Positions 10,595 through 34,288 of a DNA stretch of 64,000 nt are shown here, in pieces. The stretch is from an uncultured Clostridia bacterium. GTDB taxonomy: Bacteria > Bacillota > Clostridia > Oscillospirales > Acutalibacteraceae. Under the pieces are notes generated by a model. That model had not been told where the DNA came from and did not search any database. It saw only the letters and a list, made by a program, of their open reading frames with translations. The first letter of the stretch is position 1. Each line of letters starts with the position of its first letter. The stretch spans positions 62,001 to 126,000 of the forward strand of contig CANQFC010000001.1 of assembly GCA_947598155.1 (NCBI GenBank), written 5' to 3'. Position numbers and translations under genes: made by a program.

Positions 10595-10623
10595 TTGACA
10601 ATGATAAAATTTTAAAATATAAT
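10595..10623 (+). promoter_or_regulatory. Sigma-A promoter of the surface-protein operon
   Basis: TTGACA (10595-10600), a 17-base spacer and TATAAT (10618-10623): both hexamers match consensus exactly. Transcription would start near 10630 and leave a leader of about 95 bases before the TTG start of the first gene. No other promoter of this quality is seen before 20980. Confidence 0.85.
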
Positions 10624-10723
10624 AATTCTGGGTATATTTCAGAAGTTGAAATTTAATTGTTAAATACATAAATTTCTTACTGAAATATTCGGCAAAAGGC
10701 AATAAAAAATAGAAGGTGTTTTT

Positions 10724-11557
10724 TTGGCTGATTTTAGAATAAAAACCGATAACCAATATTCTGCCATATACCGCAACGGTAAAACGGGTTTTTCCGTCGG
10801 CTATTACACTGCAAAAGAAATGAAAGATTTTTTCCCCGGCGGCACAATCAGAGTGGTGGGGCAGTTAGGGTACGGTAAAGACAAAGACATTGTCGGCGCC
10901 CTTGAGGTCGGCGGAGTAACTGAAAACGTATATAGGGTGCGCTCCGCGGCAAACAAAAAAGCGGCCGGCTACATTGAGCTTGAGAACGGCGCCTTTATCG
11001 CGGTTAAAAAAGACATTACGGCTTTGATTATTCTCTTTGTATTGCTTGGAGTGCTTGTACTGGCGCTGCTTATTGCCGGTATTACTTATGCGGTAAAGGC
11101 AAGCTCTCATTCCGGTGAAACGCAAACAGAGTCCGAGCCGTACGGCGAGCTTGCGGGCGACCAAGAGGAGGGCTTTGGTCAGCTTGATTTGCCTGAAAAG
11201 GCGGACGTTTCCGAAAAAGAAGTCACAATAATCGGTATTCCTGAAATGCACCTTAAAGCGGGTCAAAAACAGCAAAACTTTATTTTGTCCAATTCTTTAC
11301 AAAACGAGGGTATCTGTTTTATGGAATTTACCGTTTATATTGATAAAAACGGAGACAAAAAAATAGATGCGGGCGACGAACAGTTATATAAATCCGGGTT
11401 GGTCAGACCGGGTTACTCAATATCAAAATTCAATCTTAATCGAGAGCTTGACGCAGGTGAATATGACGGGCTTGTTATGGAACAGCCGTATTCTTACGAT
11501 AAAGCTCGGACGCCATTGAATAATATGGTAATTTCGACTAAGATTATAGCCGAATAA
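10724..11557 (+). CDS. Bitopic membrane protein, first gene of the surface operon
   Basis: 277 aa from a TTG preceded by AAGGTG. Residues 1-98 look cytosolic (no signal peptide; GKTGFSVGYY, FFPGGTIRVVGQLGYG). One membrane helix spans about 99-125 (TALIILFVLLGVLVLALLIA). The outside part (126-277) is acidic at first, then beta-rich. DKNGDKKIDAGDE near residue 215 has the D-x-N-x-D spacing of a calcium loop. I do not know the family. Being first before the giant protein suggests a membrane base, regulator or assembly factor for it; that is inference. Confidence 0.8.
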   Translation: MADFRIKTDNQYSAIYRNGKTGFSVGYYTAKEMKDFFPGGTIRVVGQLGYGKDKDIVGALEVGGVTENVYRVRSAANKKAAGYIELENGAFIAVKKDITALIILFVLLGVLVLALLIAGITYAVKASSHSGETQTESEPYGELAGDQEEGFGQLDLPEKADVSEKEVTIIGIPEMHLKAGQKQQNFILSNSLQNEGICFMEFTVYIDKNGDKKIDAGDEQLYKSGLVRPGYSISKFNLNRELDAGEYDGLVMEQPYSYDKARTPLNNMVISTKIIAE

Positions 11558-11583
11558 AAATATTATAGAAGGAAGATGGTAAA

Positions 11584-14500
11584 ATGAAAAGCAAAAAAAT
11601 CCCCAAGAAGATGCTTTCAGTGATTCTTGCTTTTATGTTGTTAGTTACTTCAATGCCGCTTATTATAACGCAGGCGGCCATAGTTAATCCCGGCAAGTTT
11701 GACCCTGTGCCGTACTGGTCTTTGGACCCTGACGGTGCTACCAAGAAGGACGCAAAGGAGATAATGTTCTCGGCGGTACTTAATGCCGACAACAGCATAG
11801 ATGTCTATTTCCCGAGGGCGTTCTCCGTAGACTTTCAAGACGGCGACCCGTCCACTCCTCCCACGCCCGTTAAAATGATGGGTTACATAGTTACCCTTAC
11901 CGAGATTGAGGACGGCCAAACCAATAAAAACCCCATTCTTGAGCAGTATTATCCTCTTGCAAATGTCGTACAGAATGATACGGGCACCTATGCCCGCCAG
12001 ATTACAATCAAGGCGGAAGATGTTGAAAAAGCTGTCCATTTGGGCGAAGAGGACGGCGGCTTTAAGACCAATGTTATATATGATGTAGGCGTAACCGCTG
12101 TGGATAATGAGTACTGGACAAGTGAGACTATCCACACGGTTCTTAACGACACGCCCTACTATAACCTTACCGGCGACTATTCACCCAATGAAGACTGGAT
12201 TGCCCGTGAAATGTTAAGGTTTGAGGAAAGATATACCGAGGATACAAAAATGAACGGCGGCGAGCTTTCCACAACCGGCACGGGGCTTACATACGGCGTT
12301 GACTACGCCGGAACACAAAGCGGTACGGCAGGCATCAATGTTGACGGTAAATTCCCCGAAATGGGCTGCGACAATTCCAGCTCCATGCACTTCTGGATAA
12401 GCGGTAATTATACAACTCCGTTCAGCTTTACCACCACATGGAGCCGTGGCCACTATGACTTTAGCGGCGCAGAGGAAGTTTGGTTCTATGTAGACTTCCG
12501 TGATGTTCGCTTTGACAAAATTTCATTTAACTTGACCGCCAACGAAAAGATAAGTGATAACCAAGCTGAAGGCGGCAGCAGTATTGAGCTTCTTTCCCGT
12601 TACGGCGCTTTGTATTCCACCAAGGCTGTCGGCGATGCAAACAAGGGTACTTTGGGCGGCATTTATTTCCAGGACGAGGCAGGTCTTTGGGAAGAAACCA
12701 CCATGACCGACGGTTGCCTTACCGATTTTGGCGGCTACTGTGGATTTATCCGTATTCCTCTTAAGTACTTCGTAGCGCAGGAAACAGAGTATGTTCTTTC
12801 CGATAACGAGGGACTTACCGAGGACTGGCGTCCCAGAAACGGTATCGGTATTCCACAAGCCCCCAACGAAGGCCAAACGAGAGAGCGTATCGCAAACCAC
12901 ACTTTCCCGACCAGTACATATAATACCGTTAATCTTCAGATAACGAAGGACGGCGTTACAACAACCCGTGCGGCTGTTCGTGATGACAGTGTTGCTCTTA
13001 TTCATAATCATGTGGGCAAGACCGAAACTATTTTCTCGTCTACTTCGACCGAAACCAAGAGCTTGTTTAAGCTCCCCGTAAACCCTGCCGGCACTCCCAT
13101 TACGGAGGCGGCGCTGCTTCAGGAAAGATTTTCATATTATGAAGGTAATATATTATCTGGTTATGCCCATCACAACTACAGCTACGGCTATATGCTTGCG
13201 GACGGCACCACCGAATCCGTTACAAGAGACGGCTCAACGGCTACCGTTGCAATCAATATGGACGACGGCTCTGTAAGAATGGCTATCGAGGATTTGTGCT
13301 CGGCAGGCTTTGAGGTTGAGGGCTGGACCGATGATTCCGTCAACAACTCGTTTGATATTGACCGCATAATCTTTATGCGTAAAGCGGATGAAAACTCGGA
13401 CGGCGATTACAACGCCGATACAGGCGCTGTTCTTGAAAGCGCACCCGTTCAGTTCCCGACAGAGTCCGGTAAATTCGCTACCGACCGTGGCTACAAAGTC
13501 GGTATCTACTACAACAGAACCTCTCAGATACCCACTGCCATAGCGAATTTCATTGACGAATATCTCGGCGATGTTCCATCTTTGCTCGACTACGACACAA
13601 TCAGATTTATCGAAAATGCCGTTGAGATATATAAAGACTGCTTCCCGAATGAAACGGTAGCTGAAAATTTGGCATGGCTCGGTACGCAGTACCCCGACGA
13701 GTACAACAAGTACTTGGCCGCCAAGGCATTTGTAAATAAGTATATCGGCACAGGAGACGGCGAAAACTATTATCAGGCGGCGTTGCTGTTTGAACAGCGT
13801 GTTGAGCTGCTCCCCGACCCCAATTTCCTTGATATGTCATCCGATACCATTAAGTCCGAAATTATTGAGCTTATGGGGCTTTACCAGAGCTTTGACATAG
13901 GTAAGCTTGACCTTATCGGAGACGGTACGGAGTCAAAATTCCTGCAAATTTACCGTATGATGGTCGGTAACGATATAAAGGCGGGGCACTCCATAGGCGC
14001 ATACCCCTATATCCCGTTCAATAACTTTGAAAGCAGATACTATTTGAATGAAACTGCGTTCAGATATTATAACGACGGCGGCAAGATATGGGATGCAGGC
14101 ACGAAGAATACCGACAGAAACAATGTAGGCAGCTTTACGGTTTACGGCGATAACGAGATTGTAGGCACAAAGGGCGATGCAAACGGCTGGTTCCCAAGAG
14201 CCTATAACCCGGCATCGGATGCGGGCGACGGTAGCTACGGTAACTTCCAAAACGGCACTTACTTCTCAAGAGTCAGCGCGCAGATTACCGCCAACGGCTT
14301 TAACGGCACTAAGGGCGCAAGCGTAAACTTTGACGGCGACGTTACAAACCATTACAATGTTATTTCCGTATCCTATCAGGGCAGAACGGCTCCTAACTTT
14401 TCCGAATTGCCGGGGCTTAATCTCTCCGCACTTCAGCTTTCAAACAAGTCAGCGGACGGCACCAGCGCCAACGATGAAAGCCGTTACGGCGGAAAATGGG

Positions 14501-17181
14501 CGAACTCGTTTGTAATGTACATTGACTATTCGCATGTTAAAGATGTTGCTATGAACCTCCAGTTTATTGTAGGCAGGGGCGGCACGGACGACGTATTCTA
14601 CTTCGCTACGGGTAACACCGGCGAGGACAGAATTTGGATGCTCAATGAAAACGGCGACTGGGTTGAAATACCTATCAATACCAACGCCGTGGGCAGCGAC
14701 TGCAGTACGATTATGCCGAACGACAGCAACCTTGACAACTCATTGCAGGGCTATAAGGGCTTTATACGTATTCCGCTTTCAAAATTCCGCAACAGCGCAG
14801 GCGACAGGCTTGACAATGTTCTTGACGACAATTTGACAATCAAGCGCGTGCATGTTGCTTTCTGGTCTGACGATAATACCAATGTCGGCGAGAGCGTAAC
14901 TGTTGACGGTATGGGCTTTACCTATGACCCGTCCGTTACGGGCAGAGTTTCCGCCGACCCGAGCGCAGAACTCATAAGCGACAACGCTTATGTTTCTGAA
15001 ATTCAGGATCTTGATAAATACTTTGCCGTTCAGACGGACGACGCCACAGCCTTTGCGCAGGCGGTATATTCGCTTGACGCCCATTCGGGCAAAGATAAGT
15101 TTATGGCGGATTACGAAAAAGCCAAGGCTATGTATGAGGCGCTTTCCGATTATCAGAAGTCTTTGCCCGATGTTAAGAGCGCATTGGCTTATGCTAACGG
15201 ATACGACGATCCGGACGAAACCATTAAAAACGATACGCACGATTATTTAGCGCTTCACGCGGACTATGACAACTTAATTACAACAGACGCCTGGGCGTCC
15301 ATTTTCGGCGATACCTCAGAGCTTAGCGCGGCTGTTGCGGCACTTCCCGGGCAGTTTAAAGACCCCGACAAATGCACGGAAGACAACCGAGTAAGCGATG
15401 ATGTTTACGATTACGACAAAGCGGAAATCAAATTCGATTTCTACGGCGTATCCGGCGCGGACGATGAAAATATTCAAAAGGCGATAGACGCTTACGAAAA
15501 GGGCTATATGAGGCTCAGCTACACAGAGCGCAAAGCCTATCAAGCAGATACAAGTAATTACAACGACCTTATCAATTCCTATAAGACCGCGCTTAGAATA
15601 AGGGAGTTAATACAAGACCGTGAGAATATTCAAGTATTCTACGACAAGGTTATTGCCCTGTACCCCATGCAGACGCAAACGCTGGACGGTTACGATATTC
15701 CTAAAGAACTTCAGATGAAGACCTTAAAGACCTATAAAGCAGATGGCGGTCAATATACAGACGAGCTTGACCCAGATATAGCAGATGCGATTTTGGACTA
15801 TTACTATATGTCGATATTCGCAAAGACCATGCTTGTTCAGTCAAATACCCCGACCGCTAAAGACCAAAATACCGCTTTAATGGCGGACGCATTGATAAAT
15901 GTTTACATCAATGCTCGCACAAGAAACGTCACCGACGTCTCCACAGGCGAAGAATACAAGGCGACGCACAAAGTCGGGACCAAAACAATCACTTATAAAG
16001 GCTTGCCCGGCGGTGTCAGGTATTATGTTGATATGACGCACGCGGAACACGAAGAAATATCGAGGAAAGTCAAAGACGGCGAGTACTTGAGCGCCGCAGA
16101 TTTGAATAAGATTGAGTATCTTATCCGTCAGTATGAGGCGTTCAGACAGCGTTTCCAGGCGATTGACCCTATGTATAACGAATACCTGCACTTGTTAATG
16201 CCGTTCCCGTCGGCGGATATTCAATTAAAAAGAACAAATTCCACCGCTTCAACGGATATAACTTCACGGGGATACATTTTCAATAAGGTAGACGACCCAA
16301 TGACGCACTATATTTACCTTGCACACGTTTGGGCGCGTTTGAACCACAGCGTAACACTGCGCGTGTATTCAGACCTTAAAATGAACCAGGTCGGCGGCGC
16401 CCCCTTTAGTGGAGAAGTTAAATTCACCGTTGATTTGCTCGACGGCAAAACGTTACAGGACGGTAAATATTACAGCGATTACATCACGCATGCAGACGGC
16501 AAAACGGAAGAATTTACAAACAGGTTTAGCGCAGGAAATCCGGCAGGCGAAAACTACTTAAAGTCAATGGCGGTTACGATTAAATGTGATACCGCAATAC
16601 CGCTTGAAACCACTTTTGAGGGTAAAATCTACATTGAGGCGTTTGACTCAGACGATATTGAGGCATATAACAGCGGCACGCTTACGGATTACAACGGAAA
16701 CAATATTGAACCCGAACCAATCGCAACAACGCAGGTTCCCGTTTTCTACAATTCGTCAGAAACATTCTATTCAGTAACATTCCCCGCAACCGTAGAGGTT
16801 CCTTTCAAAACATTGACCACCGCCGCAAACATCAGCGTATTAAGCTTGCTTAAAAACGGCGATCAGCTCAGCGTAAACTTGCTCGACCCGCCCGACGGCG
16901 GAGAACGCCAGATGAAACTTGATGAAAATAGGGTACCCAAAGGCGTTGCCATACCTGATCCGATTCCCACCATTCCGTACAAAGTAGGCGACGGAACCGA
17001 CACCTTTAATCAGTTTACTACATTTACAGTAAACGGAGACGGTTCAGGCGTAGTCAGCCGTCTTGACTGCCCATTCAACATTTGGGTAGACGAGGCCGAT
17101 TGGAACAAGTCTTATGTTAACAGTTACGTTGACGATAAGCTGACCTTTACGGTGGCATATAACACCGCAAGCGGCGGATAA
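11584..17181 (+). CDS. Giant multidomain secreted surface protein (1865 aa)
   Basis: The signal peptide is residues 1-30 (MLSVILAFMLLVTSMPLII). Two related beta-rich modules lie at about 190-400 and 800-1120; each has an xSG/GTKG-A-V-N strand, an FYVDF or MYIDY strand, and GFIRIPL before a variable loop, resembling carbohydrate-binding jelly rolls. Helical linkers follow at about 1150-1530 (ALSDYQKSLPDVKSALAYAN, SYTERKAY). A beta domain covers about 1540-1715. The last 145 residues (VTFPATVEVPF ... ADWNKSYVNSYVDDKLTFTV) are a copy of the module that forms the five small proteins downstream. There is no LPXTG or C-terminal helix, so anchoring must be non-covalent. Probably an adhesin or fibre tip; the function is inferred. 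Confidence 0.85.
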   Translation: MKSKKIPKKMLSVILAFMLLVTSMPLIITQAAIVNPGKFDPVPYWSLDPDGATKKDAKEIMFSAVLNADNSIDVYFPRAFSVDFQDGDPSTPPTPVKMMGYIVTLTEIEDGQTNKNPILEQYYPLANVVQNDTGTYARQITIKAEDVEKAVHLGEEDGGFKTNVIYDVGVTAVDNEYWTSETIHTVLNDTPYYNLTGDYSPNEDWIAREMLRFEERYTEDTKMNGGELSTTGTGLTYGVDYAGTQSGTAGINVDGKFPEMGCDNSSSMHFWISGNYTTPFSFTTTWSRGHYDFSGAEEVWFYVDFRDVRFDKISFNLTANEKISDNQAEGGSSIELLSRYGALYSTKAVGDANKGTLGGIYFQDEAGLWEETTMTDGCLTDFGGYCGFIRIPLKYFVAQETEYVLSDNEGLTEDWRPRNGIGIPQAPNEGQTRERIANHTFPTSTYNTVNLQITKDGVTTTRAAVRDDSVALIHNHVGKTETIFSSTSTETKSLFKLPVNPAGTPITEAALLQERFSYYEGNILSGYAHHNYSYGYMLADGTTESVTRDGSTATVAINMDDGSVRMAIEDLCSAGFEVEGWTDDSVNNSFDIDRIIFMRKADENSDGDYNADTGAVLESAPVQFPTESGKFATDRGYKVGIYYNRTSQIPTAIANFIDEYLGDVPSLLDYDTIRFIENAVEIYKDCFPNETVAENLAWLGTQYPDEYNKYLAAKAFVNKYIGTGDGENYYQAALLFEQRVELLPDPNFLDMSSDTIKSEIIELMGLYQSFDIGKLDLIGDGTESKFLQIYRMMVGNDIKAGHSIGAYPYIPFNNFESRYYLNETAFRYYNDGGKIWDAGTKNTDRNNVGSFTVYGDNEIVGTKGDANGWFPRAYNPASDAGDGSYGNFQNGTYFSRVSAQITANGFNGTKGASVNFDGDVTNHYNVISVSYQGRTAPNFSELPGLNLSALQLSNKSADGTSANDESRYGGKWANSFVMYIDYSHVKDVAMNLQFIVGRGGTDDVFYFATGNTGEDRIWMLNENGDWVEIPINTNAVGSDCSTIMPNDSNLDNSLQGYKGFIRIPLSKFRNSAGDRLDNVLDDNLTIKRVHVAFWSDDNTNVGESVTVDGMGFTYDPSVTGRVSADPSAELISDNAYVSEIQDLDKYFAVQTDDATAFAQAVYSLDAHSGKDKFMADYEKAKAMYEALSDYQKSLPDVKSALAYANGYDDPDETIKNDTHDYLALHADYDNLITTDAWASIFGDTSELSAAVAALPGQFKDPDKCTEDNRVSDDVYDYDKAEIKFDFYGVSGADDENIQKAIDAYEKGYMRLSYTERKAYQADTSNYNDLINSYKTALRIRELIQDRENIQVFYDKVIALYPMQTQTLDGYDIPKELQMKTLKTYKADGGQYTDELDPDIADAILDYYYMSIFAKTMLVQSNTPTAKDQNTALMADALINVYINARTRNVTDVSTGEEYKATHKVGTKTITYKGLPGGVRYYVDMTHAEHEEISRKVKDGEYLSAADLNKIEYLIRQYEAFRQRFQAIDPMYNEYLHLLMPFPSADIQLKRTNSTASTDITSRGYIFNKVDDPMTHYIYLAHVWARLNHSVTLRVYSDLKMNQVGGAPFSGEVKFTVDLLDGKTLQDGKYYSDYITHADGKTEEFTNRFSAGNPAGENYLKSMAVTIKCDTAIPLETTFEGKIYIEAFDSDDIEAYNSGTLTDYNGNNIEPEPIATTQVPVFYNSSETFYSVTFPATVEVPFKTLTTAANISVLSLLKNGDQLSVNLLDPPDGGERQMKLDENRVPKGVAIPDPIPTIPYKVGDGTDTFNQFTTFTVNGDGSGVVSRLDCPFNIWVDEADWNKSYVNSYVDDKLTFTVAYNTASGG

Positions 17182-17190
17182 ACGGTATAA

Positions 17191-17210
17191 ACGGGTAAAA
17201 CCTAACCCGT
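17191..17210 (+). promoter_or_regulatory. Hairpin between the giant gene and the small-subunit genes
   Basis: ACGGGT (17191-17196) pairs with ACCCGT (17205-17210) across an 8-base loop, followed by an A/T stretch without a T-run. It is too weak for a clean terminator. A hairpin here could stabilise or partly attenuate the mRNA so that subunits outnumber the giant protein. Confidence 0.3.
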
Positions 17211-17242
17211 ATATATAAAATTTAAAGTAAAGGAGAATGTTT

Positions 17243-17710
17243 ATGAAGAAATTTATTTCGGTACTTGTTGCGGCAACGTTTGTAATGCTCTCCTGCTTAC
17301 TCACTGTTTCCGCCGGTACCCTTTCTCCGACCGAACAACAGACAGGCTCAATGGTCATAAGCACCGAACGCACTGAAGATATTGCGGTGACTTATCCTGC
17401 GGACGTCAATATTCCTTATGGCTCCGAGGGTGATTATGCAATCGGCGAAATCAGCGCGGCAACAATGGTCATCGCTCCGAACAAAAAGGTGACGATTACA
17501 GTTGCGTCTGAAAATGACTATGCCTTTGTCAGCGGCGGAGGAAAAATTCCCTATACGCTTGGCGGCGCAAACGCGATTGAGTTTACGGAGGTCAACGACT
17601 CTTCCGTATTCCCGCTCACAGTTTCCGTCAGCAAGGCGGATTGGAATGCAGCCACGGCAGGTGAATACAGAGATGTACTCACTTTCACTTTAGCTTATGA
17701 AAATATATAA
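17243..17710 (+). CDS. Small secreted paralogue 1 of the surface operon
   Basis: 155 aa. The signal peptide ends about residue 24 (LLTVSA). The mature protein has a short Thr/Ser-rich N-arm (TGSMVISTE), then IAVTYPADVNIPYG, VTITVAS, IPYTLGG and the closing ADWNAATAGEYRDVLTFTLAY. This is a Cys-free, all-beta pattern of about 125 residues. The start at 17243 has AGGAG seven bases upstream; an ATG at 17237 is too close to it. The stop overlaps an upstream ATG of the next frame. It is closest to the giant protein's C-terminus (shared YPA/FPA ... IPY ... ADWN). Confidence 0.85.
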   Translation: MKKFISVLVAATFVMLSCLLTVSAGTLSPTEQQTGSMVISTERTEDIAVTYPADVNIPYGSEGDYAIGEISAATMVIAPNKKVTITVASENDYAFVSGGGKIPYTLGGANAIEFTEVNDSSVFPLTVSVSKADWNAATAGEYRDVLTFTLAYENI

Positions 17711-17730
17711 TGAAAGGAGTTGTGTGTATT

Positions 17731-18240
17731 ATGAAAAAAGTTCTTTCGCTTGTTTTAGCTATGGTAATGGTTCTTTCATTGGCTGTACTTGCGTTCGCGG
17801 AGGATAAAACCTTACCCGACGCCGAAGGCTATACTACAGGTCAATCTCAGATTCTTACCTCTGAAACAACATCAGAAGGCAAATCCGCTGTCAGCTTTGA
17901 GGTTAAGTACCCCGCGCAGACCACTTTTGATTGGAATGCCCTCGTTGCAGACGCTCAGGTTAAGTATTCCGCAAAGACACATTTGGCATATGGCAATAAG
18001 CTTACTGTAAGCGTTTCTTCGGCAAAGTCAAAAATGACTATTGACGGTAACGACAAGTACGGCCTTGCATACACCTTAAAGGACGACGCGGCAGGTTCAG
18101 CGCCTCTTAAAGACCTTGTTCTTAATGAAATAGACAGCGCGGAAAAGACCGTTTATGTTGATATTCCTCAGGCCCAGTGGGACGCCGCTCCTGTTGGCCA
18201 GTATTCCGATACTCTTACTTTTACAGCGAATGTAGCATAA
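17731..18240 (+). CDS. Small secreted paralogue 2 of the surface operon
   Basis: 169 aa. Signal peptide 1-23 (VLSLAVLAFA-ED). The mature part shows FEVKYPAQTTFDWN, VKYSAKTHLAYGNKLTVSV, LAYTL, and AQWDAAPVGQYSDTLTFT at the C-terminus. It has the same strand order as paralogue 1 and a 20-25 residue N-arm rich in Thr/Ser. ATG 17731 has AAAGGAG 12 bases upstream; an ATG at 17710 overlaps the previous stop and may couple translation. No cysteine in the mature chain. Confidence 0.85.
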   Translation: MKKVLSLVLAMVMVLSLAVLAFAEDKTLPDAEGYTTGQSQILTSETTSEGKSAVSFEVKYPAQTTFDWNALVADAQVKYSAKTHLAYGNKLTVSVSSAKSKMTIDGNDKYGLAYTLKDDAAGSAPLKDLVLNEIDSAEKTVYVDIPQAQWDAAPVGQYSDTLTFTANVA

Positions 18241-18259
18241 TTTAAGGGAGGAAATTATT

Positions 18260-18763
18260 TTGAAAAAAGCTTTATCTATAATTTTATCATTGATTATGGT
18301 TCTTTCTTTGAGCGTTATAGCTTTTGCAGAAGAAATCACAGGCGACGGCAGCTCTCCAGAACAGACAGCCGATTCAATTGTAAAGACACAGACCGTAAAT
18401 GAAAGAGGCGAAGATGTTACTAGCTTTACGGTAACTTATCCCGCAGAAACTACTATCCCGTGGGGAAAGACTGACGCTGTTGATGTTGCTTACACAATAA
18501 ACTCGCAACTCCTTTTCAACAAGAGACTTAAAGTTTCGGTTGCTAAGAAAGACGGCGAGGATGCTATGAAAGGCTCCGCAGGCAACGATGCAACCCTTGC
18601 TTACACTCTTGACGGTGATGTAAATGTTACCACAGAAGAGGCGGCTGTTTCAGGCCTCAGCAAAGCCGCTACGGTTGCTGTTGCTCAAGATGCATGGGAT
18701 GCAGCTCCCGTTGATACTTATCAGAGCAATCTTACATTTACTGTTGAAGTAGTGAGCGCTTAA
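18260..18763 (+). CDS. Small secreted paralogue 3 of the surface operon
   Basis: 167 aa, TTG start with GGGAGGAAA ahead. The signal peptide (SLIMVLSLSVIAFA) is nearly the same as in paralogue 2. Mature motifs are FTVTYPAETTIPWG, VAYTINSQLLFNKRLKVSV, LAYTLDGD and DAWDAAPVDTYQSNLTFTVEV. Paralogues 2 and 3 look like the most recent duplication, judged by shared signal sequence and WDAAPV. Confidence 0.85.
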   Translation: MKKALSIILSLIMVLSLSVIAFAEEITGDGSSPEQTADSIVKTQTVNERGEDVTSFTVTYPAETTIPWGKTDAVDVAYTINSQLLFNKRLKVSVAKKDGEDAMKGSAGNDATLAYTLDGDVNVTTEEAAVSGLSKAATVAVAQDAWDAAPVDTYQSNLTFTVEVVSA

Positions 18764-18808
18764 TTAAAAAAATCAATTAAAAAATCATTAAATAAGGAGT
18801 AATTTACT

Positions 18809-19330
18809 ATGAAAAAACTTATTTCAGTTGTTCTCGCAGTATTAATGATTTCCGCAATTTGTGTTCCTGCTTTCGCAGCACCAGCTGAACAAACAATTAC
18901 AACACCGACATCAGGCACAGCAGTAGTTAAGGTTAAAGAAGACTCACTTGACGCCGCAGAATGGTATGTAGTTAAAATCCCGGCTGACAAAGAAATCGCC
19001 TGGGACACAACATCCGTTGATATGAGCTATTCGGTTGCCTGCCAGCTTGAAGAAGGCAAATCTATTGATGTTACTGTTACCGACAGTGATGGAAATGAAA
19101 TGAAAGATACTAATCTTAGCGGTAAAGATACAATCGAGTTCACACCCACAGGCTTTACTGATGGACACTTTGATGCAGTTACAGGCACAGGCACAAGCGT
19201 TGGTGATGCATCACCTGTATCTCATACTGTTACACTTTCAATCCTTCCCACAGCTTGGGACGGCATCGCAATTTCAGTTTATCAGACCACGCTTACGTAC
19301 ACAGTAGCTGTAAATAATCCTGCTATTTGA
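18809..19330 (+). CDS. Small secreted paralogue 4 of the surface operon
   Basis: 173 aa. Signal peptide 1-23 (AICVPAFA-AP). The mature part contains GTAVVKVKE, YVVKIPADKEIAWD, MSYSVACQLEEGKSIDVTV, a longer Thr/Gly loop (GTGTSVGDAS), and TAWDGIAISVYQTTLTYTV. One cysteine is present in VACQL. A 44-base gap separates it from paralogue 3, and AAGGAG lies before the ATG. Confidence 0.85.
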   Translation: MKKLISVVLAVLMISAICVPAFAAPAEQTITTPTSGTAVVKVKEDSLDAAEWYVVKIPADKEIAWDTTSVDMSYSVACQLEEGKSIDVTVTDSDGNEMKDTNLSGKDTIEFTPTGFTDGHFDAVTGTGTSVGDASPVSHTVTLSILPTAWDGIAISVYQTTLTYTVAVNNPAI

Positions 19331-19356
19331 TTTCTGATTGCACAGAGGTAAATAAA

Positions 19357-19857
19357 ATGAAAAAACTTATTTCTGTTATTCTTGCGTCCTCAATGATAGC
19401 GGCGCTTGGACTTACCGCATTTGCGGATAATCCCATAACGCAGGCCTCCGGCTCTAAAAATTCGGAAGTAGTTGTTAAGACTGTTATTGAAGACAGCGAT
19501 GAAACTTACAGTGTCACAATTCCTGCCAACCTTGATATTGACTGGGGCGACACTACGGTTCACGATATGAACCCGAAGGTTACTTCACAGTTAAAGCTCG
19601 GCGCGAAGATTACTGTTACGGTTACTGATGAGGACTCAGACAAAAAGCTTAAAAATGAAGGCTGGCCAGCAGGGCTTGCATACACGCCCACAGGTCTCGA
19701 TGAAGCATTTGAATTTGGCGCGTTAAACACCGATGCAATTCCGAAAAGCGCCGCAAACACAGTTTCGGTAAAGGTTCCGAGCTTTGTAGGCGTTCCCATT
19801 GCGGTTTATCAGACCAAATTAACCTACACAGTTGAGTACACTGCGCCCACACCGTAA
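19357..19857 (+). CDS. Small secreted paralogue 5 of the surface operon
   Basis: 166 aa from ATG 19357 (AGAGGT upstream). A TTG at 19327 in the same frame overlaps paralogue 4 and has no RBS. Signal peptide 1-23 (LGLTAFA-DN). The mature part shows SEVVVKTV, YSVTIPANLDIDWG, SQLKLGAKITVTV, LAYTPTG and VPIAVYQTKLTYTVEY. The second conserved Trp is replaced (PSFVG), unlike the other four. It is closest to paralogue 4 in signal peptide and the AVYQTxLTYTV ending. Confidence 0.85.
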   Translation: MKKLISVILASSMIAALGLTAFADNPITQASGSKNSEVVVKTVIEDSDETYSVTIPANLDIDWGDTTVHDMNPKVTSQLKLGAKITVTVTDEDSDKKLKNEGWPAGLAYTPTGLDEAFEFGALNTDAIPKSAANTVSVKVPSFVGVPIAVYQTKLTYTVEYTAPTP

Positions 19858-19906
19858 TGTACTTCCCCCTTAGCATAAAAAATACTTAGTAAAGAGGGGT
19901 GATTCG

Positions 19907-20917
19907 TTGAAAAGGTTTTTATGCTTTGCTTTAACAGCTTTTCTTTTGCTGGCAATGAGTGTTTCGGGATTCTGCGCTGAGCCTACGGCCGATGAAACAA
20001 GCGGCGGAACAATGGTAATTACCACAAGTGTTCCCTCCAAGCATAAAATCACCGTGCATTACAATGATGACGGCGGTGCTGTTATGTTTAACGGTAAGCT
20101 TTGTCAGGATGGCACTGAAATAATTGTTGACAGATTTGATGGAATCAACCTTGACGTCATCTGCAAAAAGAATCATCATGTTAAGCAAATCGTTATAAAC
20201 GGCGAGGATGTTACCGAGCAATTTGTAAACGGTACTATCCAGCTTACTGATGTTGTTACGGACGTTTATATAACTTTCGATTTTGAGGACTGCTCGTCAG
20301 ATCCGAATGATGACTGCTTTAAGTTAAACTCGGAAGGCACGGTTTACCTTGGAGATAAAAAGGTTTCGGGCGCCGATTTGGATTTTGATTTTGGAAGTTT
20401 TTCCGCAAAAACCGATAAAAACGGCAGATATTTTGTAGAAGATTTGTCGGAAGGGCGCCATACCGTTACTGTAACAAAGGACGGAAAAAAACTTGGCACC
20501 TGTGAGTTTGTCGTTTCAGTTTCCGAAGATGCCGATAAGGTTAGCGTTCAAACTCTTCCCGACGGTACCCAGCTTGTAGTTGTACCGAAAGGAACGGATA
20601 AGGTCTATTTGGATTTTGTTATTGACGATGAAAATGGCGACGGAATTCCCGACATAGACCCTAATTTGACCGACCCGACAGTTCCACCGGAAGGCGGATT
20701 CAACGGTTCGGACGGCGGTAAAGGCAATACAGGTATGCACATAAGTTTAGGCTCCTCAAAGCCGGAGAAAACACCGCCTAAAATTCCTATAACCGACACG
20801 CTTACATCTGCATACTTCTTAATTCCGGTTGGCATAATGCTTGTAAGCCTGTGCTTTATTCTACTTCTTGCCCTCAAACGCAAAAAGGATGAGGAAAAAG
20901 AGCAGATGAAAGGCTGA
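19907..20917 (+). CDS. Secreted protein with C-terminal membrane anchor, end of the surface operon
   Basis: 336 aa from a TTG preceded by AAGAGGGG. It has a signal peptide (residues 1-23) and a short N-arm TSGGTMVITTSVPSKH, similar to the arms of the five paralogues. A middle region (about 125-205) resembles a carboxypeptidase-regulatory/transthyretin-like fold (GTVYLGDKKVSGADL, FSAKTDKNGRYFVEDLSEGRH). Then come an Asp-rich calcium-type loop (DDENGDGIPDIDPN), a Pro/Gly stalk, a membrane helix at about 300-323, and the basic tail KRKKDEEKEQ. PKIPITD precedes the helix but is not an LPXTG site. Likely holds the structure at the membrane (inference). Confidence 0.8.
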   Translation: MKRFLCFALTAFLLLAMSVSGFCAEPTADETSGGTMVITTSVPSKHKITVHYNDDGGAVMFNGKLCQDGTEIIVDRFDGINLDVICKKNHHVKQIVINGEDVTEQFVNGTIQLTDVVTDVYITFDFEDCSSDPNDDCFKLNSEGTVYLGDKKVSGADLDFDFGSFSAKTDKNGRYFVEDLSEGRHTVTVTKDGKKLGTCEFVVSVSEDADKVSVQTLPDGTQLVVVPKGTDKVYLDFVIDDENGDGIPDIDPNLTDPTVPPEGGFNGSDGGKGNTGMHISLGSSKPEKTPPKIPITDTLTSAYFLIPVGIMLVSLCFILLLALKRKKDEEKEQMKG

Positions 20918-20943
20918 TTTATCAATACTTTAATAGTATTTTC

Positions 20944-20981
20944 GGGGCATCCTCCGTAAGGGGGACGCCCCAAAATTTTTA
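20944..20981 (+). terminator. Intrinsic terminator of the surface operon
   Basis: GGGGC...CCTCC pairs with GGGGGACGCCCC (20961-20972) with one bulge, followed by AAAATTTTTA. It closes the 10.3-kb plus-strand unit. Confidence 0.7.
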
Positions 20982-21061
20982 TCTCAAATTACGTCTTGTA
21001 AATTCAAGTTTAATGATGTAAATTTATTTGTAAGCAAAATTTAAAAAAGTTTGAATTTTAT

Positions 21062-21090: not shown

Positions 21091-21121
21091 ATTAAGTGAA
21101 AGCGCAAAAGAGGTGGAAAAT

Positions 21122-21613
21122 ATGACGGATGACATTTTAAAGCTTGTAGTCTATTCAAAGAGCGGTGACAGAGAGGCTTACGGCAAGCTGTATGAATATT
21201 ACTCAAACGATATGTATAGATTTGCTTTAAGCATTTGCAGAAATCAGTCGGACGCCGAAGACGCCGTTCAGGAGGCGGCGCTGTCGGTTTTTAAAAGCAT
21301 AAGATGCTTGTATGACCCGACAAAATTTAAATCGTATCTCTTTACGGCGCTTTCAAATGCCTGTAAAAAAACTTTCCGTGAAAAAACAGAGCAACCTCCT
21401 GAAACTATTGCCTACGAAACGGAAAATTATATTTCAGCGGACGTAAAAAAAGCTCTTGACCTGCTTGACTCGGTCTCTCGGGAGATAGTCCTTTTGTCGG
21501 CAGTCGGAGGATTTAAGTCGGGTGAGATAGGAAAAATTCTTGATATGTCGTCTGTTACGGTACGCACAAAGAAAAGAAGAGCGCTTTCAAAAATGCAAAA
21601 GGAGTTAGAGTGA
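21122..21613 (+). CDS. ECF-family RNA polymerase sigma factor
   Basis: 163 aa sigma-70 family protein. Region 2 (residues 10-75) has DREAYGKLYEYYSNDMYRFAL and NQSDAEDAVQEAALSVFKSI. Region 4 (about 110-160) has LLDSVSREIVLLSAVGGFKSGEIGKILDMSSVTVRTKKRRALSKM, the helix-turn-helix for -35 recognition. ATG 21122 sits behind AGAGGTGG; a GTG at 21113 overlaps that RBS. The next gene begins at the stop (TGATG overlap), the usual arrangement with an anti-sigma partner. It follows the surface operon directly, so control of that operon is possible. Confidence 0.92.
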   Translation: MTDDILKLVVYSKSGDREAYGKLYEYYSNDMYRFALSICRNQSDAEDAVQEAALSVFKSIRCLYDPTKFKSYLFTALSNACKKTFREKTEQPPETIAYETENYISADVKKALDLLDSVSREIVLLSAVGGFKSGEIGKILDMSSVTVRTKKRRALSKMQKELE

Positions 21614-23640
21614 TGAAAAAAGATATAGAAAAATATATAAACGACAATATTAAAGCTCAAACGCCGCCCTCTCTTTCAAAAGAAAATATCGACAGAATGA
21701 TTGACTCTTCTTCGGAAGAAATTGAGCCTGTAAAATTCGGGGAAAAGCGAACAGCGTATAGATTGGCCGCGGCTGCCGCGGTGCTTGCCGTTGTGCTCGG
21801 CGCGGTTTCGGTTTACACGGCGTTAAATAAGCCGAAAAGTATTCCGCTTGACAATAGCGGTATGCTGAGCGTTTCGCCAGATAAAAATTACGGTGAAATT
21901 TACTCAAGGCTGAAGAAAATGCGAGATAATTTCAACGCTGACGAATACGACATATACGGCGCCGACGGCAGTATAGAAGAATCGGCCTCTGAAATATTTA
22001 ACGGAGAAATAAACGATTACACACAGGGCGGAAACTCAGACGCGAACCGTTTCGGCACAACAAATACGCAGGAGGAAAATGTTGACGAAGGCGATATTAT
22101 CAAGACAGACGGGGAAAATATTTACCTTGCGGACAGGAATAATAACTGCGTATATATCGTAAACGCCGACGGCGGTAAAATAAGCAAGCTCTCTGAAATT
22201 AAGCTGAGCGGCGATGTGTTTGTTCAGGAAATATATCTTAAGGACGGCAGGCTGGCGGTTATATATTCCGAATACGACTATTCAAAACAGCCTGCGGGCG
22301 GCGACGCGCGTTATAACGGTCAGGATATAATCAGCTTTAACGGCTTTTGCGCCGCTTGGGTCTATTCGGAAACAAAAGTTAATTTCTATGATGTTACCGA
22401 CCCTAAAAACGCAGTTTTAATATCTGATTTTTCACAGTCGGGTGAATTTGTTTCAAGCAGATTGAGCGACGGCAGGTTATACATCGTTTCTGATTTTTGC
22501 GTTGATCTTTCATCAAAGGACTACCTGAAAAACGGAATCCCGGAAACAACTGAAAACGGCGGCAAAAAACGTATTCCGGCGGATAAAATCTTTCTTGTTA
22601 ACGATACTGACGCGCCGACCTACGCGGTAATATGCGCATTTGACTTTGCGGGAGCCAAAAAAACCGATTCCTCGGCAATCTTCGGAGACCCGACTAATGT
22701 TTATGCAACGGAAAACAGCTTTTACCTTGTTGAAACAAAATACGACAGCGAAAAATATGACGAGTATTTGAACATTCTTAAATTTGAATTTACCGAAACG
22801 GGACTTAAGTATATTGGCTCTGCCAAAGCTCAGGGAAGTCTCAACAGCAACCTTTCAATGAGCGAATACGGCGGATATTTCAGAATCGCGACGACCTGCG
22901 CGGTAACAAAGCAAAACGGTAAAACAGTTTCATATATCGGCGAGACAAATAAGCTGTATATTTTTGACTCCGAAATGAGGCAAACGGGAATTATCGACGG
23001 ATTTGCGAAAGACGAGCAAATTCGCTCGGCAAGGTATATTGGCAATTACGCTTATATTGTGACTTTCCGTCAGACAGACCCGTTATTTGTTATAAACTGT
23101 TCAGATCCCAAAAATCCTAAAATTGAGAGCGAGTTAAAACTTCCCGGATTTTCAAGATACCTGCACCCGGTAGGCGGCGGTCTGCTTGTAGGAGTAGGCA
23201 ATGACGGAGATGAAAACAACTCCGACAACAATATGAAGGTTTCGCTGTTTTCAGTGGTTGACCCCAAAAATCCGAAAGAGCTTTCATCAGTAAGAGTGGG
23301 AAATAAGGACGATTACGTTCAAAGTAATGTTTTCTATTCTTATAAAGCGTTTGTATCTCTTCCGAACGGCGAATTTGCGGTTCCGCTCAGCTTGAATTAC
23401 AGCAGAAACCAAATGTTTATACGTTACAGCGTATCTGACGGCGCTGTCTTAGAAACAGCCCGCTATGAATTGGGCGGCGCGGCAACCGAAATTATAGGGG
23501 GAACGTATATAGGAAATTATTTTTACATTTTTTCATCGGAATTTATCGACGGAGGAACAAGCGGCACAGTCGATTGGCGGCCAAGGATTACTTCATTTGA
23601 TATGACGAAAAATGTAAAGAATGAAGAGATTGAGCTTTGA
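21613..23640 (+). CDS. Membrane-anchored beta-propeller protein, likely anti-sigma
   Basis: 675 aa. Residues 1-55 are cytosolic and charged (KDIEKYINDNIKAQ, ENIDRMIDSSSEE), followed by a membrane helix at about 54-76 (LAAAAAVLAVVLGAVSVYTAL). The rest is extracellular and matches the secreted Beta_propel family, with its hallmark NVDEGDIIKTDGENIYLA at about residue 155 and repeated blades. The N-terminal segment is where an ECF-binding region would lie, though no ZAS zinc motif is seen. One-base overlap with the sigma gene implies equimolar production. It may sense an extracellular signal; that is inference. Confidence 0.85.
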   Translation: MKKDIEKYINDNIKAQTPPSLSKENIDRMIDSSSEEIEPVKFGEKRTAYRLAAAAAVLAVVLGAVSVYTALNKPKSIPLDNSGMLSVSPDKNYGEIYSRLKKMRDNFNADEYDIYGADGSIEESASEIFNGEINDYTQGGNSDANRFGTTNTQEENVDEGDIIKTDGENIYLADRNNNCVYIVNADGGKISKLSEIKLSGDVFVQEIYLKDGRLAVIYSEYDYSKQPAGGDARYNGQDIISFNGFCAAWVYSETKVNFYDVTDPKNAVLISDFSQSGEFVSSRLSDGRLYIVSDFCVDLSSKDYLKNGIPETTENGGKKRIPADKIFLVNDTDAPTYAVICAFDFAGAKKTDSSAIFGDPTNVYATENSFYLVETKYDSEKYDEYLNILKFEFTETGLKYIGSAKAQGSLNSNLSMSEYGGYFRIATTCAVTKQNGKTVSYIGETNKLYIFDSEMRQTGIIDGFAKDEQIRSARYIGNYAYIVTFRQTDPLFVINCSDPKNPKIESELKLPGFSRYLHPVGGGLLVGVGNDGDENNSDNNMKVSLFSVVDPKNPKELSSVRVGNKDDYVQSNVFYSYKAFVSLPNGEFAVPLSLNYSRNQMFIRYSVSDGAVLETARYELGGAATEIIGGTYIGNYFYIFSSEFIDGGTSGTVDWRPRITSFDMTKNVKNEEIEL

Positions 23641-33178: not shown

Positions 33179-33241
33179 GATGAAGAATAAAGGTGGAATA
33201 CCTTAAATTGCAAATTTCAAAAACGAAAGGAAAATGTGATT

Positions 33242-34288
33242 ATGAAAAAAATAATTGCGATACTCGTTGCTTTGGCAATGGTGTTATCAATGTCGGTTTT
33301 GGCTTTTGCCGAATTTAATGGCGTAAAAGCCCCTGATGAGATGCAGAATGTTTACAGTCAGGAAGATTATGACAAAGCGGCAACACTTGAAAACTGGCAG
33401 CTTGAAGATTATGGAAACTGGTGGAGACAAATTCAAGCTCGCGATGATATTAAAGCACAGGGCATTTATACTAAAGAAGACGGCAGCTTAATGAATTGGG
33501 AAGAGTCTTGGAAAGCGTATTATGTTTACGTACTTCAGAACGCCAGCAGCGATATGGGTACAGCCGCTACTGAAATCGTAAGTATAGTTCAGGAAGGCTA
33601 CATTCCGGCAGGCGACGCTATCTCTATTGCAGGTGAAACTGTAATGGGCGGCATCGGCGGCGACGGCGGCAGCGGCGATTTGTCAGGCGTTATAGATGAA
33701 CTTCTCGGCACAATTACCGGCGGTAACCAAGATCCCGAAATTTCAACTCCCGATTATGTTGATGAACTTGCGGAGCTTATCAACAACGGCGCGTCTTTTG
33801 ATGAAATTGCACAGAAGATTTCCGATGATATTGCAAGCGGTAAAATCGTTGTTTCTCAGCTTCCGGACATTGCCAACGAATTAACTGAACGTGTTACGTC
33901 AGGCGAAATAGCCGGCAATGAAACAGTTCAGCAGATTCTTGGATTCTTGAAGGGTCTCGGCTCAGGCAGCGAAGGCGGCGGTTCAAAATTCCCGTCATTC
34001 GGCGATATTACCCTTCCTTGGGACAACGACAACTCATCATCCGGCAGCTTCCTTGATACGCTTCTCGGAATTATCGGCTCAATAGGCGATCTCTTTAATC
34101 CTTCTGACGATCCCGAAGAGAATCCCGGAACTTCCGATCCTTCGGACGAATTTAGCGGCGACGACAATATGGGTGAAGGTGAAAATCCTGACACAGGCGA
34201 TATTTCATTCGTAGCAGTTGCGGCGGTTGCGGCAGTTGCGGGCGCGGCATTGATTCTTACAAGAAAAAAGAATGACGACGCCGAATAA
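33242..34288 (+). CDS. Cell-wall-anchored surface protein with NPDTG sorting signal
   Basis: 348 aa. Signal peptide 1-22 (LVALAMVLSMSVLAFA). An N-terminal region (25-110) is rich in Trp/Tyr and acidic residues (ENWQLEDYGNWWRQI). Gly-rich loops follow (GGIGGDGGSGDLSG), then a low-complexity Ser/Gly/Pro stalk. It ends with NPDTG at about 315, a hydrophobic helix and RKKNDDAE, a sortase-type sorting signal with Asn for Leu. It ends up covalently on peptidoglycan if a matching sortase exists; none is in the window. The function of the outer domain is unknown. GTG 33236 is an alternative start. Confidence 0.8.
   Translation: MKKIIAILVALAMVLSMSVLAFAEFNGVKAPDEMQNVYSQEDYDKAATLENWQLEDYGNWWRQIQARDDIKAQGIYTKEDGSLMNWEESWKAYYVYVLQNASSDMGTAATEIVSIVQEGYIPAGDAISIAGETVMGGIGGDGGSGDLSGVIDELLGTITGGNQDPEISTPDYVDELAELINNGASFDEIAQKISDDIASGKIVVSQLPDIANELTERVTSGEIAGNETVQQILGFLKGLGSGSEGGGSKFPSFGDITLPWDNDNSSSGSFLDTLLGIIGSIGDLFNPSDDPEENPGTSDPSDEFSGDDNMGEGENPDTGDISFVAVAAVAAVAGAALILTRKKNDDAE

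Follow-up and report, generated by a model that had tools for sequence, protein, structure and literature searches.

Several described systems can be compared with an eight-gene operon of an uncultured Clostridia bacterium (Oscillospirales; Acutalibacteraceae), which encodes a giant secreted protein, five small secreted proteins, a bitopic membrane protein (BIT) and a C-terminally anchored protein (the anchor). Sortase-assembled pili of Gram-positive bacteria are surface fibres with a tip and a base. Chaperone-usher pili (archaic Csu type, CFA/I and type 1) have several pilins per operon, with a pilin fold and an N-terminal arm, an immunoglobulin-like (Ig-like) partner and a tip-like protein that ends in a pilin domain. 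The donor-strand principle is already known in Gram-positive bacteria as well, from TasA-type fibres, the operon of which includes a dedicated signal peptidase, SipW. In TasA-TapA of Bacillus subtilis, according to the available portions of PMC10151520 and PMC9674648, a donor-strand fibre is supported by a second protein, TapA, the N-terminus of which is TasA-like. WxL clusters with WxLIP (DUF916-DUF3324), in the available portion of PMC10599100, combine a small module-only protein, a large protein with a C-terminal module and a membrane-anchored Ig-like partner, and strand insertion is predicted for them. The reading favoured here, with about even confidence, is that the operon builds a donor-strand adhesive surface fibre that resembles a chaperone-usher pilus, in a clostridial host and without an usher.

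The window is the whole stretch of DNA that was analysed, 64,000 nucleotides long (assembly GCA_947598155.1, contig CANQFC010000001.1, positions 62,001 to 126,000 of the forward strand). The operon and its putative signals lie in it as follows.

10595..10623, + strand: sigma-70-type promoter match TTGACA-17-TATAAT, 12/12 positions
10724..11557, + strand: BIT, bitopic membrane protein, 277 amino acids (aa), TTG start
11584..17181, + strand: giant secreted protein, 1865 aa, putative tip adhesin
17243..17710, + strand: small module protein 1, 155 aa, distinct shorter subtype
17731..18240, + strand: small module protein 2, 169 aa
18260..18763, + strand: small module protein 3, 167 aa, TTG start
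18809..19330, + strand: small module protein 4, 173 aa, structure-modelled
19357..19857, + strand: small module protein 5, 166 aa
19907..20917, + strand: anchor, 336 aa, TTG start
20938..20976, + strand: terminator-like hairpin, then T-rich sequence (folding compared with shuffles)

The giant was present in 20 of the 147 genomes searched, all of its own genus, namely its own genome and 19 of the 38 other members. Eighteen of the 19 giant-bearing relatives were examined, G026 being excluded because a contig end truncates the frame. In all 18, as in the window, small module genes follow the giant in tandem. Among the neighbours listed, the 17 uncut operons (window included) have 5-10 small module genes each, and the two operons cut by contig ends, L045 and L057, have at least three each. 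BIT lies 5' of the giant in 17/17 testable operons, window included (16/19 by script, plus L057 at about 1 kb; L046 and L050, without upstream sequence, were not counted), and the anchor lies 3' of the small genes in 16/17 testable operons, again including the window, the exception being L044. Moreover, the small-protein-1 subtype adjoins the giant in all 18 operons whose sequence was shown. Because the gene order is kept in other genomes of the genus, it is not a chance arrangement, and the operon is a real conserved unit.

The five small proteins are mutually 20-40% identical across 123-140 aligned residues, and an alignment that includes the end of the giant has two invariant motifs, V-x-x-P-A past the first strand and, terminally, Y-x-x-x-L-T-x-T. 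The small proteins thus differ and yet belong to one family by alignment and profile, as an earlier note, made from the letters of this DNA, had proposed. A relation that was absent from the note is that a profile of genus small proteins (A2; 102 of 110 small frames, giants excluded, signal peptides retained) also matches the C-terminus of the window giant, with E 4.7e-12. The same profile matched the ends of other giants with E values between 5.3e-20 (best) and 2.0e-6 (weakest) among the matches listed. This giant-free profile was used in place of an earlier one, A1, which held the giant's end, so that its matches to the six founders are true by construction. A further alignment, A4, comprised 32 hand-chosen modules, the end of the L095 large protein being placed by eye. 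None of the eight operon proteins reached the cut-off of a Pfam or NCBIfam family, and the parts of the operon are named by no family in the libraries searched. A module profile search, which the note had suggested as a check, thus found the end of the giant and also distant loci. An order-wide tally with the small-protein profile (180/394 genomes) was dropped since many listed matches outside the genus cover the signal peptide only, and distant module loci were taken instead from matches spanning the mature module. The sequence matches of this profile in the PDB were likewise dropped, since the top ones were antibody chains to which the signal peptide had aligned.

Structure models covered small protein 4, one of the five, and the giant from residue 815 onward. 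The predicted model of small protein 4 resembles chaperone-usher pilins (Ig-like fold; moderate scores). For the giant itself, Pfam and NCBIfam yielded no family within the thresholds applied, and a phmmer search of the PDB gave nothing better than E 0.5. Its predicted parts are the following.

14026..14943, + strand: jelly-roll domain, residues 815-1120, CBM11/CBM4-like (model, partly low confidence)
15001..16206, + strand: mostly helical stalk, residues about 1140-1541 (model)
16207..16722, + strand: penultimate pilin-like domain, residues 1542-1713 (model)
16723..16752, + strand: linker strand, residues 1714-1723, candidate intrachain donor strand (model; block mean predicted local distance difference test score, pLDDT, 88; aligned ranges reach 912)
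16765..17178, + strand: C-terminal module of the small-protein family, residues 1728-1865 (alignment, profile)

In the model, the linker strand between the two pilin-like domains completes the first one and is placed like a donor strand; completion of a groove by a strand is seen only there, inside the giant's own chain. Residues of about 190-430 and 815-1120, compared by eye, have the pattern G-[FI]-I-R-I-P-L in common, which suggests that the giant has two carbohydrate-binding-like domains, the second of them covered by the model. Of the structure prediction that the earlier note had called for, a pilin-like small protein 4 and two pilin-like domains of the giant were obtained, and the other products lie outside the models. 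The statement that nothing in the operon matches known systems is not supported, given the predicted likeness of small protein 4 to chaperone-usher pilins and the sortase signals of anchor-like proteins elsewhere, described below.

In the polymer that we infer, each small protein would have an incomplete Ig-like pilin fold and, at its N-terminus, a flexible arm that fills the groove of the following subunit. The tip would be the giant, with a carbohydrate-binding-like domain that may bind sugars, a helical stalk that carries it and two terminal pilin-like domains. The linker between these would fill the first groove, and the last groove would receive the arm of a small protein. The anchor, with an arm and no groove, would close the base and fix the fibre to the membrane or wall, which would give the fibre its polarity. 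BIT would hold free subunits at the membrane and pass them on, or would serve as a platform.

The operon shares with chaperone-usher pili the predicted pilin fold, the N-terminal arm, several pilin-like proteins per operon, a possible Ig-like partner and a tip-like protein with a C-terminal pilin domain, the tip position of the giant being putative. It differs from them in its clostridial host, its membrane-anchored partner and its anchored, putative base protein, and the sequence similarity is marginal. No match to the usher (PF00577) was found in the genome at E<=1, and none to the PapD-type chaperone (PF00345, PapD_N) at the same threshold; the usher search detected its E. coli control. The operon would resemble TasA-TapA as a donor-strand fibre of a Gram-positive with a second protein that has a subunit-like N-terminus, whereas its many diverged subunits, putative giant tip and C-terminally anchored protein are unlike that system (PMC10151520 and PMC9674648, available portions), and TasA/camelysin (PF12389) had no match in the genome at E<=1. 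Operons of the genus contain up to ten module genes and the alignment shows no dual Trp-x-Leu motif, unlike WxL clusters; the WxL domain (PF13731) was not matched in the genome at E<=0.001, in a search that detected its Lactococcus control. Since the usher, PapD_N, TasA/camelysin and WxL families were not found, the operon is not classed as a member of a known system, but it may still work like one. Searches of an open-access library brought up no paper that describes this operon, as judged by title or the opening of the abstract, which does not prove that it is unpublished.

The base of the proposed fibre was considered next to the arms of the small proteins. In the arms of 102 small proteins, one column is hydrophobic in 102/102 and is followed two columns later by Thr in 92%. 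Past its signal peptide, the window anchor reads TMVITTSVP, compared with SMVISTERT in small protein 1, and the corresponding feature is as follows.

20009..20032, + strand: N-terminal arm of the anchor, residues 35-42, small-protein-1-arm-like, candidate terminal donor strand

When the 18 small-protein-1 arms were used as a profile, 12/16 anchors scored at least 1.0 bit, as did 15/320 shuffles and 0/27 other N-termini. With all 102 arms, the counts were 9/16, 27/320 and 4/27 at this threshold and 6/16, 3/320 and 1/27 at 4.8 bits or more; the anchors are interrelated and do not count as independent observations. Provided that the resemblance is genuine, the anchor would act as a donor without having a groove. 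A parallel is TapA, the N-terminus of which resembles that of TasA and is proposed, in the available portion of PMC10151520, to start TasA fibres. The anchor also contains a CarboxypepD_reg-like stretch that is below the family cut-off.

BIT, judged by eye, has an N-terminal region of about 98 aa inside, one transmembrane helix and an extracellular domain of about 115 aa (about 11207-11554). The extracellular domain is conserved across several families, well outside the genus. In an order-wide sample it occurs in 62/394 genomes and 41/168 genera, and in a phylum sample in 9/398 genomes (the own genome, two of the same order and 6 outside the order). Outside the order, a recognised module adjoins BIT in 3/6 loci. 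Among 46 loci examined, a module gene lies downstream on the same strand for 29/44 BIT genes, and in L138-L153, strong BIT matches outside the genus that were chosen by BIT score, it lies at -45 to 76 bp in 15/16 loci. Loci L094-L107 were selected by module matches and are no evidence for the linkage. In L099 and L103 the module protein is upstream of BIT rather than downstream, and in L099 the BIT domain is carried on a lipoprotein (by eye). Two loci of two families, L095 and L096, have the full order of BIT, a large protein with a C-terminal module, module genes and an anchor. Several of the weakest BIT loci have a small secreted protein next door (by eye, among the neighbours listed).

The earlier note had put forward a mixed fibre that has the giant at its tip and the terminal proteins at its base. 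Such a fibre, as a proposed polymer, is still the best reading, with the anchor as its base. For BIT, a role as chaperone in assembly or as dock is more likely than one in the base, since at many other loci its partner is one recognised module gene. A profile of 16 hand-chosen BIT domains (A5) was compared with nine K-12 PapD-type chaperones and gave a 14.5% probability and E 0.0019, in register with the mature N-terminus of the chaperone; the best of 20 shuffles reached 0.5% and the reversed profile 0.1%. Against the PDB, FimC was matched at E 1.2, ranked behind penicillin-binding proteins at E 0.2-0.9, and one of the 16 BIT domains matches a Pfam PapD-like family (E 0.0036). The likeness of BIT to PapD chaperones is therefore weak. 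It is rather doubtful that the Clostridia possess a chaperone-pilin system in which BIT would be a tethered PapD-like chaperone, the module a true pilin relative and the products usher-less donor-strand fibres, the cassette being reused to display lectin-like, leucine-rich-repeat (LRR)-type, heme-binding-like and other surface proteins.

Other loci gave separate observations on the pair. In L141 and L143 the module is fused to a heme-binding-like domain (NEAT-like, by eye) beside an iron/heme ATP-binding cassette transporter, with BIT upstream, and the pair may act there in iron uptake. In L142, L147, L179 and L180 the gene of a short zinc-ribbon-like protein precedes BIT (by eye), and a frame resembling a phage tail tape measure is nearby in L180 (by eye). 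The BIT-module pair may travel on mobile elements.

Several observations limit the case for the fibre. Non-pilin matches are also among the structural matches of the giant model. The 84 other arms, used as a profile, do not favour anchors (1/16, compared with 22/320 shuffles and 4/27 other N-termini). Twelve of the 14 weakest BIT matches are without a recognised module. A chaperone-pilin control pair scored 25.6% through signal peptides alone, so that the score of BIT with PapD chaperones is no proof of homology. Furthermore, many loci consist of BIT and one recognised module gene, which fits docking as well as a homopolymer. Because of the non-pilin matches and the arm-profile controls, confidence in the fibre and in the usher-less chaperone-pilin system was lowered and that in docking was raised.

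Docking is the main rival, though an unlikely one. As in WxL clusters, the module would be a surface-attachment domain, and BIT, or the wall, would hold a single module at a time by strand complementation, the small proteins and the giant lying next to each other on the cell and forming no chain. The gene content closely parallels those clusters (PMC10599100, available portion), from the small module-only proteins to the large protein with a C-terminal module and the membrane-anchored Ig-like partner. Larger proteins of different types likewise have the module at the C-terminus in other families (among the neighbours listed). In this genome it ends a secreted LRR-type protein (by eye) of 484 aa on contig C4, far from the operon (G000:C4:134491-134910; L040 1492-2946, L058), which matches the small-protein profile with E 2.6e-36 and may be a second adhesin using the same fibre or dock. 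However, the genome lacks a WxL match at the threshold given above, and the 16 BIT domains matched six families, DUF916 and DUF3324 not among them. Five to ten diverged module proteins in the uncut operons of the genus, plus an anchor in all but one of these, exceed the needs of simple docking, and the linker strand of the giant is positioned like a donor strand.

The possibility was also considered that the products are independent secreted beta-sandwich proteins, each with its own ligand, co-expressed for convenience and without assembly. Many beta-sandwich folds bind ligands, and the low identity of the small proteins and a copy number that varies by species would be consistent with it. Interaction is indicated instead by the fixed order, in which the giant leads and the anchor closes, by the recurrence of the module at the giant's C-terminus, by the conserved arms and by the tight BIT-module pairing, and independent proteins are improbable.

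A sortase-dependent structure, in which one of the genome's five sortases would link subunits or the anchor covalently, is more improbable still. The C-terminus of the anchor has IPITDT where relatives have a sorting-signal-like site, followed by a transmembrane helix and a KRKK tail; other genus anchors have ISQTGA, FPNTDA, LPNLGA or IPVMGA before the helix (by eye). The site has the look of a degenerate sorting signal. Anchor-like proteins with (S/N/E)PxTG occur in at least five loci outside the genus (SPQTGD in L094 and L168, NPGTG in L096, EPDTGD in L167, SPPTGD in L178), and two further loci have the variants IPMQTGE (L095) and DVPTGD (L149). These signals were noted by eye rather than by survey, and the proteins of L149, L167, L168 and L178 are putative homologues of the window anchor. 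A tip and a base would be common to sortase-assembled pili and the proposed fibre, and sortase signals occur on anchor-like proteins of relatives, whereas the operon has neither pilin sorting signals nor a sortase gene. LPxT[GAN] and xPxTG were found in none of the eight operon proteins, in line with the lack of LPXTG stated in the earlier note, and xPxTG in none of the tails of 16 genus anchors. Attachment of the anchor to the wall may be the work of a sortase, but assembly of the chain would not.

The absence of a sortase and of an SLH domain from the operon, also claimed in the note, was correct for the operon and did not extend to the genome, which has the five sortases and one SLH protein, all outside the window. 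An S-layer was rejected since the SLH protein, the sole match, is on another contig; the operon proteins reach no cut-off of a wall-binding family. A secreted protein of 350 aa (window 33236-34288) has the sorting signal NPDTGD, which indicates that the genome has canonical-looking sortase substrates; a profile match to this protein covers the signal peptide only.

The eight genes form one block on the + strand, are all open and are separated by gaps of 19-61 bp, with a purine-rich stretch 5' of every start codon (8/8 genes). The genes listed in the note and its consensus promoter at 10595 (12/12) were thus confirmed, and a single operon is supported. A promoter scan gave 23 matches at 9/12 or better, compared with a shuffle mean of 18.1, so that only the perfect match is of interest. 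The terminator was also upheld: region 20935-20985, 3' of the anchor, folds into a hairpin of -23.5 kcal/mol (z -4.59, equalled by 0/200 shuffles), although a simple terminator scan did not list it. Directly 3' of the operon, at 21113-23640, are an extracytoplasmic function (ECF) sigma factor and a beta-propeller protein (PF09826, E 1.9e-123). These were rejected as operon members since relatives of either were found in 0/18 related loci, and BIT and the anchor are therefore taken as the limits of the unit.

The word 'Lapin' in the record names of two relatives suggests that the group may live in the rabbit gut. If the fibre is real, a group of Clostridia would have an unrecognised adhesive fibre with a tip apparently suited to polysaccharide, and the donor-strand principle, which TasA-TapA exemplifies in Gram-positives, would extend to a pilus of several subunits that has a tip and a base. 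The BIT domain, with its spread across the order, is therefore a handle for choosing relatives for a direct test. Such a fibre would also raise the question of common ancestry between usher-dependent pili and this system.
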